Source: Bugulina stolonifera
Lineage: Eukaryota > Bryozoa > Gymnolaemata > Cheilostomatida > Bugulidae
Length of the DNA stretch: 64,000 bases
Assembly (NCBI GenBank): GCA_935421135.1
Contig: OW285196.1
Span: forward strand, 3,887,001 to 3,951,000
Reading direction: 5' to 3'
Below, piece by piece: positions 5,897 to 41,800 of this stretch (within the stretch, counting starts at the first letter, position 1; every line of letters begins with the position of its first letter). The notes below the pieces were generated by a model. That model saw only the letters and a program-made list of their open reading frames with translations, was not told the DNA's origin and did no database searches. The translations under genes were made by a program, and so were the position numbers.

Positions 5897-8800
5897 CTAT
5901 CTCCGCCCCTTATTGTTTATAGAAGACACCATTAGATTAATATAGGAAGTCAAGAGGTCATCCATCTTGTAACCCTAAAAATAGGAGCAGTTGAAGCTAA
6001 TTGTAAACTATGTATAGACAGAACGTTTTATATCAAAACATGGGTTGCAGTAAAGATAAACCTACCTTTACATGGAGCTACATGTACAAATGTACATCTA
6101 AAACGTGCTATCAATTTGGAGTTGTTGCCCCTTAGATCTGGAATACCAGATGAATAGTTGTTATAGTAATGCGGTTTCTAGGATTTAAAGGTGAGACAAC
6201 TCCCAATTTGTGACAGAATACACAAAGTTGACATAAAAATAAAAATCCAGCAGTCGTGAACTCATTTCAACATTCACTAATGATTTGCAAGTAGAACCGG
6301 AATACTCAGGTACTAGTACATGTATATGTATATATAACTGTTATTTCAACTAGTTTAAACTGGATGACAGCACTGCTGTAAGTTTTAATAATGAGTCAGC
6401 ACAAAGCAAATCAACTGATCACCGTTTGAATATCAATCAAAATTAAGGCTATTTCTACCAAAGCCATAATGAGGGTCTATAGTAAGGCAGTGCTGGAAAC
6501 TCCTAAAGAGTGCATAGTCATAAATCAGGATAAATTGAGCATCCAACTCTTAATTGAAAAGTAAGCAGAGCTTTTACAGCCATGACTAATCTTTACAAGA
6601 TTATTAACTGACGATTAACTGCTGATTCATAGCCGTCGTTGGACCAAGAGTTATACATTTACTTACCAGAGTTGTGTCACAGAATAACTTGCTCCCTCTC
6701 ACAAGGTTTCCAATAGTCATGTGGAAATGGCTGGGACCACTCGACCAGTTAGATATCTTTGTGAAGGGATGAGTGGCAAGTATATCCTGTAACAACATGT
6801 TTGACACATTGAATGTTATGTAATGTATAACCTACATTATCAGAAGACTGTAAGAACCAAATAGCTTTGTTACTATGCACATTACTCCTACTAGATAACC
6901 TAATGTGTGTACTACTGCTATATCAGTGCTCTTGGTACTGGTGGAATCTCTGATAATATCATACTATTGTAATATAGACAGCCCCGTACCTTACACTCCT
7001 GCATTCAATCAGCCCTTAACTATTGTATCAAAACTTGAGGGCATGTGAACCAACTAGTATATATACATGCAAGATACATTTACATGGATACATAGTTCTG
7101 CGTCCGGTTGGGTAGCTAAGGTGCAGCTTTACAACATACAGGCCAGAGTCAAAAGGGAGAGAGTCGGAACCGACTGACTGCCGTACCAAACACTCAGTTA
7201 ACTCCTAACCACTTCTTCAAAACTAGCATATAAGGTAAAATGGTATACATAACTCTACCTTAGAAGACGGGTGGATAAGGTTAACGCCCATCTTATTAAT
7301 GGCTATGAGTAGCTTCTCTGGTATATTTGAGTCTGTAGACTGAGTAACTTCAAAGAATGCAGATCCAAAGGTCGGCCATTCATAGATAATCTTAAGGAAT
7401 TCCATCTAAACAACAAGATACATTGTAATTATAATGTAGAAGATACCAACAGTAAAAAATGGACAGTGAAAAAAATGTAAGAGAGGCCAAGAGTATTACA
7501 TCATCCCGTTAGAGACAACTCCATGTAGATGAGTGCAGAATGCAGATGGCGTTGGAATATCACCAAACAAAAATTTACTTTGATCAGAAACGATGACCAA
7601 CAAATTATTGAAAGAGTACTGACAATAATTTTTTTCTTGCACAATCTGATTCAGTGTGCCATACTCATTCAGCTTTAGTGAATTTGATGTTAGCTTATTT
7701 GACTACATTAAGTCAAAGTTGGCAATTTTATCAAATAATACCCGAATAATACTCATATAATACCCATAAATGCTCAAAATCACTAGCTTTGACATAGTGC
7801 AGTCAAATCAGTTAATGTCAACTCCATTAAAGTTAATGTGATTCTAAAGAAGCATGCAAAACTAAGCCAGATTTTAAAGAGAAAAATAACTGTGAGTATT
7901 CCTTCAAGTCTTAACAAGAAAATTGCGCAGAAACATCAAATATAAAAAGTGCAAAAATGTGACTACGACTTAAATGTGCCGTATGTTAGTATATAAGTGA
8001 AGGAGAGAACAATCTCCACACACAGGTAATAAAGTCTAAGCTACCTTAGCATCTTCAGGAGATTTTCCAGCATCTTCATTGTACAGCTTAACTATCGCTC
8101 TCTTCCATGCCTCTGCAGGCTGGTAGGTGAGCATATCATTGGGGATGACCTGCCTAATGCCTTGACTGTCGCTACAACGAGGAGATAATTTCATAATATA
8201 ACTTTGTCATTACAAGCAGAGGGAGGCAATTACTAATGAGTTATGTTAAATTAAATCAGAACACCAGAATATCTAGACAGAGTTCCAAGTAAACATACCC
8301 GAGGGTTACTAGGCGACTCTTATCCTCCCCGTACTTGACCCTGTAGATGAGAGAAGCTAGTCTAATGGCTTGCTCTACTGAACATTTGTGGTAACCTCTG
8401 AGGTACTTGGGTAGTTCCTGTATAATAGTATCAATGTACATGTAGTAGCAGTAACAGTAGTAGTAGTAGCAGTAACAGTAGGAGTAGTAGCAGTAACAGT
8501 AGGAGTAGTAGCAGTAACAGTAGGAGTAGCAGTAACAGTAGTAGCAGTAACAGCATGGGTACATGTAGTAGCAGTAACAATATGAGTAGTAGGATGTAAC
8601 AGTAGCAGTACCTGGTGGTAGTGGTATTAGTAAGAGTACCTGGTGGTAGCAACATTAGTAAGAGTACCTGGTCATAGTGGTGTTACTAAGAGTACCTGGT
8701 GGTAGTGACATTAGTAAGAGTACCTGGTTGTAGTGGTATTAGTAGGAGTACATGGTAGTAGTGGCATTAGTAAGAGTACCTGGTTGTAGTGGTATTAGTA

Positions 8801-38892: not shown

Positions 38893-41800
38893 ATGAATAA
38901 AACAAAGAAAAAGGTATGGTATTTAAATCAATATACTCTCTCATACGCTCTATGGCCTACATAGCTTATAATGTTGTATGCTATTTTAGTAAACTTTGTG
39001 AGGGCCAGAACCATCCACTGTTTAGCCGAATTACTTTTAATCATTTCCGAACATCTTCTCGTAAACCTGTGATATGCGAATGAAGGAAGGAGCTGTTATC
39101 AACTTTTTATGAATCGGTTTAACAACTGTACTAAACCTAATGATAGCAGGTTTAAATAAGTACATACAAGTACATTATATTATCTTAGGCAACACATGTA
39201 GCAAAAAAGTCAGTGGTAGCGTAGTTTGAAAAGACATTCAGTTTCACCAATTAAATTCTGAGTGTGACACTTTGCCTACAGTTGTGGCATGTCTTGACTG
39301 GTGTTGACAGGTGCTCCTGATGGGGAAGAGCGGTTCAGGAAAGACTAGTATGAGATCTATAATTTTTGCCAACTATATAGCCAGAGACACACGAAGACTT
39401 GGGGCTACAAGTAAGTAGATGCATGTCATGTTTGGAGTTATTGCCTCTATTCTGTAATGTCAAGGAGCACACAATTCCTAAATGTTATCTAAATTTGGAA
39501 GGCAGGTTTCCAAATACGTTGCAGTTACCTATTATTTGGGGTTTATATACATGTAGTTTATACAATTTATCATTCTGTATTCTTGTTTGCAAACCCTGGC
39601 ACATCTATTTGTTTTCTGCTGTAGGTTTATAATGTGATTTTATTTTGCAGTTGACATTGAGCATTCACATGTGAGATTCCTTGGTAACCTGGTGCTGAAT
39701 CTATGGGACTGTGGAGGGTAAGTTCTACTGTACCACAACTTGCACCTGTCTACCTCCCTTCCATTGTAATCATCACTCTTAGCAATGAATATTCACTTGA
39801 ACATTATTACAGGCGGCCTATAGTAGCATCTCGCCCAATTAGATGGTCTACAGAAGTATGTCATCCAATCAGACAGCCTATAGTTGTATCTCATCCAATC
39901 AGGCGGCCTCTAGTAGCATCTCATCCAATCACACAGCCTATTATAGTTATATGTCACTTTTCAAGGAGTAACTCATACTCTTCACCTGTAAGAATTAAAA
40001 CCAACACCAAGTTCTGTACAAACTGACAATGTAATTGACTTACTGTAGGCAGGAGGCTTTCATGGAGCAGTATTTTGTTAGCCAAAGAGACAGTATATTC
40101 AAACATGTGGAGGTAAGTGTGTAGGTAATATACAACTTATAATATGTGATACAATTAGTGTACTTACATGTACCTACACTGTATATACTTGATTAGTAAT
40201 TATATGTAGATAAGACACATGGAGTTTGCTGTAATGTTTGATAAGTATAAGCTTAGTGCAAGTTAAAGAAATTCTATAACATGTAAATGAACAATTATAC
40301 ATACAGTGTGTAGGTGTCATCGTATCTAATAGTGTTGTGTGTTACACCAGGTACTGATATACGTGTTTGACGTGGAGAGTAGAGAGCTTGAGAAAGACAT
40401 GCACTATTATCAGAGTTGTCTAGAAGCTCTGCTGGCAAACTCTAAAGATGCTAAAATATTCTGTTTGGTGCATAAAATGGATCTGGTGCAGGAGGACCAG
40501 AGGGAGCAGGTGAGTGTCACAGTGTCATGTAGTAGTACAGGTGAGTGTCATATGGTAGTACAGGTGGGTGTCATGTGGTAACAGGTGGGTGTCATGTGGT
40601 AGTACAGGTGGGCGTCATGTGGTAGTACAGGTGGGTGTTTGTGTGTTGCACATACATGTATTATCAAATTGTTATAACAGTTGCTGTACCATGACAGCTA
40701 TTAAGTCAAACACATCGCTAGCGTTTACAGACTTCCTATATTTTACCTCCAGAATAAATTTTGTAAAGTTTGAGCCCAAAGGCTTAATCTCAAAGGGTTT
40801 TGGTCCTCTGTTCCTGGCTACTCTTATGTTGTAATATGAACTCTGACTGTAGACTATTGGTTATGTCTCGTTATCTATATATTATGTAACACAAATATAC
40901 ATATACATATATACACTGTACATCGTATGTACATGTATATACATATATTATACTCAATCAGCATACAGTGTACCATTGTGGTGTTTAACACCTCATCAGT
41001 GCAGCTCAGAGATATGCCTGGGAGAACACCTTAGCAATACTGTATATTTACAGCAAAGCGTATATTTAAGAGGTGTGGAATCCACTGAACCAAAGTTCTC
41101 AATCTGCCAGAGACAGCGAGAATTGCGTAACGCTAGCAGTTCAGTGTATCTCCCAGGTAAAGTGCTCAAGAAATTTGTATTATATGTACATGTAGATATT
41201 CCGAGAACGAGAAGATGATATAAAGAGACTGTCGCAGCCTCTTTCCTGTGAATGCTTTGCTACGAGTATTTGGGATGAGACTCTCTACAGAGCGTGGTCT
41301 AACATAGTCTATCTACTCATCCCCAATGTAAACAGACTCGAGAACAATCTAAGGCAGTTTGCTGAGATTCTAGAGGCTGACGAAGTACTTCTATTCGAGA
41401 AAGCCACATTCCTAGTAAGTGTCAAGGTCAAATGTGGTTTTTTAATGAAATAAATTGGCTAAAAACTGTTAATCTTCTATCTGAAGGCCTTTTCTCTCTC
41501 ATTCCAGCTGCCTCTGTTTTGTGAAGCTTTGTTCTGCTTGGTGAGACCAGACTTTATATAGGCTTAGGTGCTATGGATATGTAGCCTTCATGTAGCCCAA
41601 CCTACAACTGCTTTACTTCTGTTAGGGGGTTTGGCCATTTTCTATATATAATGTGTTTTTGCAGTTAACAATTTCACCAAATTAAATTGTAACCTGCATC
41701 TCCTATCACCAGCTACTACCTGGACTCTTCATTAATGGCAGTCTGACATTGATATCAGGTGTAGCTTTTTGCTGAGGTAAACTTTTCTCAGAAATTGCTG

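Follow-up and report, generated by a model that had tools for sequence, protein, structure and literature searches.

The window analysed here is a stretch of 64,000 bp (G000:C10:3887001-3951000) from a genome of 235 Mb in 27 contigs, and the proteins it encodes are those of an animal. A myosin VII gene occupies positions 5909..31428 on the minus strand; 40 introns were modelled from homologs, and the first exon lies outside the model. Among the best 120 matches, the myosin VII protein is 59-64% identical to those of molluscs, annelids and nemerteans, 58-60% to those of vertebrates and arthropods, and 59% to that of Branchiostoma lanceolatum. A RagA gene, identified by homology, lies on the plus strand. 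Tandem arrays were called by Tandem Repeats Finder (TRF) and then overlaid on homology-based exon models. It was found that, at five 5' splice sites (donors) of these two genes, the repeated unit of a minisatellite spans the exon-intron boundary, and the same arrangement is present at seven further donors elsewhere in the genome.

The cleanest case of a junction-seeded array is located at the donor of myosin VII exon 4 (29311..29794, minus strand), where a 29 bp unit is present in 16.7 copies, with the last exon base at 29776 and the first intron base at 29775. Each unit is made up of 19 exonic bases, encoding DQCVVIS, and 10 intronic bases. DQCVVIS is the conserved protein sequence found directly ahead of GESGAGKT. 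Since the exonic part of the unit codes for conserved protein, the array derives from the junction. The other myosin VII donor arrays, likewise on the minus strand, are found at exon 14 (23288..23369; 35 bp x2.3, first intron base 23365, 4 exonic bases per unit), exon 18 (21148..21289; 30 bp x4.8, first intron base 21284, 5 exonic bases per unit) and exon 37 (8607..8962; 28 bp x12.6, first intron base 8949, 13 exonic bases per unit). The RagA exon 5 donor array (40507..40638, plus strand, first intron base 40510) contains 5-6 copies of a ~23 bp unit: the junction, CAG followed by GTGAGTGTCA, repeats at ~23-bp steps after a first step of 31 bp, and the shared exonic bases are 3 in number (CAG). 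TRF and the homology exon models thus confirm the original prediction, made from the DNA letters alone, of arrays at the donors of myosin exons 4, 14, 18 and 37 and Rag exon 5 with unit lengths of 29, 35, 30, 28 and 23 bp, respectively. Its description of the first unit as the exon-intron junction itself holds at all five sites, with the qualification that exons 14 and 18 and Rag exon 5 share just 3-5 exonic bases plus the start of the intron.

Two weak donor duplications in the same gene had been overlooked. The first, at exon 8 (26154..26226, minus strand, first intron base 26214), has an 18/24 copy 49 bp on, while the second, a decayed duplication at exon 13 (23696..23755, minus strand, first intron base 23743), has a copy matching at 17/24 positions a further 36 bp along. 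Downstream of the exon 31 donor (11939), the intron carries decayed 22-bp units bearing CAGGTG (11877..11927, minus strand), which had been presented as a decayed version of the same arrangement. The link of these units to the junction is weak: they begin ~12 bp into the intron, and the best copy of the junction 24-mer matches at 12/24 positions, no better than chance. This array was rejected as junction-seeded.

Sampling was extended by 275 kb at the loci of other myosins and of dyneins, bringing the total to 339 kb, and 22 array-strands with at least two donor-like sites were read, along with the upstream coding sequence where this was in question. Seven further donor-seeded arrays were found in six other loci (two dyneins and four myosin loci). 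The myosin arrays are M10 8838 (38 bp x6.9, with 30 exonic bases per unit, YTREGITWVQ), M10 14165 (31-bp unit), M7 12397 (34-bp unit), M6 6476 (17 bp x36) and M11 5540 (32 bp x11); the dynein arrays are D1 25712 (23/46 bp, counted as 23; TRF gives 46) and D2 38428 (19 bp x14). A unit spanning the exon-intron boundary is therefore found at 12 donors, five in the window and seven elsewhere, with unit sizes of 17-38 bp and an exonic portion of 2-30 bases. Judged by reading, without alignment of unit to unit, the units are unlike in both sequence and length from site to site, in line with the earlier view that this is not one mobile element. Eight genes in all carry donor-seeded arrays, whose units are unrelated, and the recurrent process that had been proposed is supported by the seven outside arrays and by the raised frequency of donor words within the arrays of contig C1 (see below). 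Boundary-spanning arrays occur at 3' sites (acceptors) too, with two cases found: a homology-modelled one at M5 15207 (15001-15216 of the fetched stretch; 32 bp x6.8) mirrors the donor arrangement, and one at M4 11463 (56 bp x1.9) spans the acceptor of a predicted exon. Tandem repeats are prone to assembly error, and an origin of the arrays as assembly artefacts was considered. However, units of the five window arrays differ from one another (TRF matches of 76-93%), and arrays recur in eight genes of an assembly in 27 contigs, making an artefact highly improbable.

The original prediction recognised no standard family for such repeats. The 'mirages' of amphioxus, as they appear in the available parts of two papers (PMC3087553, PMC3902484), are nevertheless of the same kind. 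Reported in Adh3, globin and TnC genes, mirages are minisatellite-like tandem repeats over exon-intron boundaries, both 5' and 3', with units of 10-72 bp in Adh3 and ~150-160 bp in the globins, many of which contain AG/GT signals (PMC3087553). Similar splice-site repeats are described for amphioxus PGBD5, in an account that cites the mirages in Adh and TnC (PMC3902484). The arrays found here resemble mirages in their boundary-spanning units (at 12 donors and 2 acceptors), in their minisatellite-sized units (17-38 bp) and in the retention of GT, which is intact in 92/97 later copies of the 10 arrays walked. That count, which draws on the whole sample with RagA outside the walk, contradicts the earlier statement that every unit carries a fresh donor site. 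Mirages are further characterised by unstable length, in somatic tissue too, and by mRNA that stays normal in spite of the added sites. In contrast to amphioxus mirages, the host is another animal, with a myosin VII that is 59% identical to that of Branchiostoma lanceolatum and up to 64% identical to those of molluscs. A donor bias and an excess of donor words were measured here, and neither was met in the available portions of the amphioxus mirage accounts (PMC3087553, PMC3902484). Within the literature found, comprising openly licensed papers available in part, mirages are treated as an amphioxus feature, and reports elsewhere may exist. The kind of array is known; new are the host animal and the measured donor bias.

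A human locus, as far as the available part of its description extends, provides a further parallel. The 31-bp variable number tandem repeat (VNTR) of CBS is designated c.1444_1467+7(16_21) (PMC2630376), a name that we read as a unit of 24 exonic and 7 intronic bases, present 16-21 times, and its plan is nearly that of the myosin VII exon 4 array. The CBS VNTR is, however, a single human locus that varies among people, whereas the arrays here are found in eight genes of one genome assembly. Tandem genomic duplication of a segment carrying AGGT is also described, in the parts of the reports available, as a mechanism of intron gain (PMC3443670; a potato case in PMC4974935), and the arrays could accordingly be viewed as recent intron gains through duplication of an AGGT-bearing exon segment (the Rogers model). 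Indeed, the units contain AG/GT, and the amphioxus authors suggested that mirages can create introns (PMC3087553, in the text available). In intron-gain duplications, however, the copies turn into the donor and acceptor of a new intron, whereas here an existing intron gained donor copies. An intron flanked by two copies of a duplicated AGGT segment was not found among the five arrays tested, all in homology-modelled introns; the distance from array end to acceptor in these is 109-323 bp, meaning that no repeat copy serves as the acceptor. We therefore regard intron gain as very unlikely.

Starting from the observed anatomy of the arrays, their recurrence in eight genes and the frequency, above that of controls, with which donor words fall in arrays along the C1 stretch, we consider them to be, probably, minisatellites of the mirage type, arising by junction duplication followed by ordinary repeat growth. 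A short tandem duplication would first form across an exon-intron junction. The exon-adjacent copy would remain the working 5' splice site, perhaps the only one used, while the additional copies would land in the intron, and the array could then grow and homogenise like any minisatellite. Such an array may persist because the mRNA would be unaltered while splicing continues at the exon-proximal donor, a putative selective sieve. Duplications within exons or over acceptors would presumably be harmful more often, and at acceptors an upstream AG might be picked first.

Tolerance alone predicts that donors are hit at the uniform rate. The data lie above that rate, although the excess over uniform placement is clear only when the discovery window or the word test is included. 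Introns were first collected by homology (194, of which 154 lie outside the myosin VII gene). This set contained 1/7 outside-window donor arrays (D1), the pairing rule having apparently left the other six introns unclosed, and their absence led to a low first outside-window count. The set was enlarged to 300 introns with 104 intronic arrays. A homemade gene-finding hidden Markov model was discarded: at its best settings, 157-158 of the 194 known introns were recovered, yet 296-298 were predicted across the same spans. Exon finding by codon score was adopted instead, with which 137/194 known donors were recovered, and 137/181 in-span donor calls were known donors. Two entries were removed by hand before the uniform-placement count: an acceptor called antisense in M10 and the predicted donor M9 6482 (array-covered, in an unconfirmed gene). 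M6 6476 and M11 5540 were entered by hand as donors once their exons had been read. M11 is absent from the count, apparently with its acceptor unpaired, and RagA is absent because the TRF array starts 13 bp past the last exon base. Two of the five covered acceptors found were counted (M4 and M5), leaving the antisense M10 call, D2 20182 (11 bp x2) and M8 8982 (62 bp x4.8) uncounted.

Under a null of uniform placement, 10 arrays in the complete data cover a donor where 4.24 are expected (p=0.009), with 2 at acceptors; the direct comparison of 10 donors with 2 acceptors gives p=0.039. In the window itself, 4 of the 17 intronic arrays cover a donor versus 0.78 expected (p=0.005), a value that is not independent because the window was picked by the original prediction for these very arrays. 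Within the 100 bp downstream, the exact 9-mer of the donor is found again at 7/341 donors (2.1%), as opposed to 1/367 for acceptor 9-mers upstream (p=0.03). We also took the 24-mer centred on each junction and searched ~150 bp of the adjoining intron for a second occurrence matching at 17/24 positions or more. In myosin VII, 6/40 donors reach this level compared with 0/40 acceptors; the rate at randomly chosen intron positions of this gene is ~9%, and the chance of 17/24 between unrelated introns is 0.1% in the set of 194. The check originally suggested, a comparison of tandem repeats at donors with those at acceptors or random intron positions, thus has a mixed outcome: the overall excess at donors is significant, but the excess outside the window is not, the 24-mer test outside myosin VII shows none, and donor 9-mers recur less often than those of the intron body, as detailed below.

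Several observations weigh against a donor bias. Outside the window the excess is not significant, with 6 donor arrays versus 3.45 expected under uniform placement (p=0.13); restricting the arrays to periods of at least 15 gives 6 versus 3.02 (p=0.08). The 24-mer test outside myosin VII yields 3/154 donors versus 2/154 acceptors, with no donor excess. Looser counting gives 12 donors versus 4 acceptors (p=0.077). Exact 9-mers of the intron body recur more often than those of donors (782/20256, 3.9%), a figure that counts every position in long arrays, whereas a donor can sit in the first unit only. The sampled loci are motor genes, and so no random gene sample, and the word test uses the first 100 matches listed per word, all on contig C1. 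With 7.4% of modelled intron bases lying in arrays, chance in a minisatellite-rich genome, where duplications are uniform and some hit donors, would account for the outside-window, 24-mer and 9-mer results. We nonetheless find this explanation doubtful, as the pooled data exceed expectation at donors with just 2 arrays at acceptors, and as donor words are borne by arrays far more often than intron 9-mers or control words.

For the word test, an array was defined as at least two copies within 100 bp, with counts made by locus. Among the matches listed, the donor words CAGGTAAGT, CAGGTGAGT and AAGGTAAGT lie in arrays at 19/202 loci (9.4%). Five control words, of which two break the GT, one breaks the -1 G, one breaks +3 to +6 and one is reversed (TGAATGGAC, CAGCTAAGT, CACGTAAGT, CAGGAAAGT, CAGGTTGAA), do so at 5/484 loci (p=4e-7). 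By locus, the array rate is 1.3% for all 9-mers of the sampled introns and 1.0-1.7% for the control words. Limiting the comparison to the same first 5.33 Mb of C1 gives 19/202 for the donor words versus 4/234 for the controls among the matches listed (p=4e-4), or p=0.001 when three arrays of shared spacing are collapsed. The automatic count for CACGTAAGT was 7/88 array loci, reduced to 4/85 by merging four within one 0.9-kb stretch; leaving these unmerged and collapsing the three shared-spacing donor arrays still gives p=5e-5 among the matches listed. Spacings in the donor-word lists range from 10 to ~50 bp, so these arrays are not a single repeat family. In the 339 kb sampled, units with a donor score of at least 8.4 bits are found in 15/156 arrays versus 4.7 expected from shuffles, and 9 of these 15 start at an exon end (RagA included), which indicates that exon-end seeding explains most of the excess. 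An exact-gap donor pattern returned 751 matches versus 141 for a reversed control and does not isolate donors.

If the start of C1 is typical, extrapolation from the three words (~5 arrays per Mb) gives ~1,200 such arrays genome-wide. Repeated mirages in another animal genome, with a measurable donor bias, make the phenomenon countable and testable genome-wide rather than a gene-by-gene curiosity, with a bearing on intron growth, on the choice of the spliceosome among a dozen near-identical donors and on the birth of minisatellites. That donors are preferred birthplaces of minisatellites beyond mere tolerance, for example as an anchor for slippage or repair during transcription, or through selection that keeps arrays of U1 sites, is a tentative suggestion that we hold to be possible rather than probable.

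The myosin junctions were placed at the exon-proximal donor by reading frame and homology. The step between copies equals the unit length, which is not a multiple of 3 in 11/12 arrays (p=0.054, a small excess that is not relied on), so that moving the splice by one copy would change the reading frame; a stop codon precedes the second donor in 5/11 arrays examined. In 7 arrays, GT columns are better preserved than the remaining pairs of neighbouring columns (p=0.011), a result that hints weakly at selection on the copies, from a small test in which copies were located through their junction surroundings. In exon 4 (13/15) and in M10 14165 (5/5), later copies exceed the first in donor strength. 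In the remaining walked arrays, later copies are no stronger, except for 1/36 in M6, and the D2 walk yielded no second copy. A selected function, with the arrays retained to bind U1 as decoys or to serve as back-up donors and so to tune splicing or shield the transcript, would fit both the GT preservation and the stronger later donors of exon 4 and M10 14165. However, the lack of strengthening in the other walked arrays, the frame shift that splicing at the next copy would cause in 11/12 arrays, and the small size and junction-guided design of the GT test all argue against it, and we consider such a function unlikely.

Other repeats in the window adjoin acceptors from the intron side. An array of 21 bp x9.4 (13580..13776, minus strand) lies next to the first exon base at 13578, and this array and those at 17847-18173 and 8442-8610 stop ~1 to 26 bp ahead of the acceptor, all without exonic bases. 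At 43619-44040, a perfect 53-bp x8 tandem array (100% matches) is far more uniform than most other arrays. A 19-bp x69 array at 62683-64000 continues past the window end, and a similar 19-bp unit is found in the array at 53745-54166. Near-identical open reading frames (ORFs) are located at ~10.9k (minus strand), 58.6k (plus) and 61.4k (plus); two are alike and the third is a close variant, resembling a dispersed mobile element. Duplicated ORFs are also present at 50.2-50.5k and 60.0-60.2k, and resemble what we take to be glutathione S-transferase genes.

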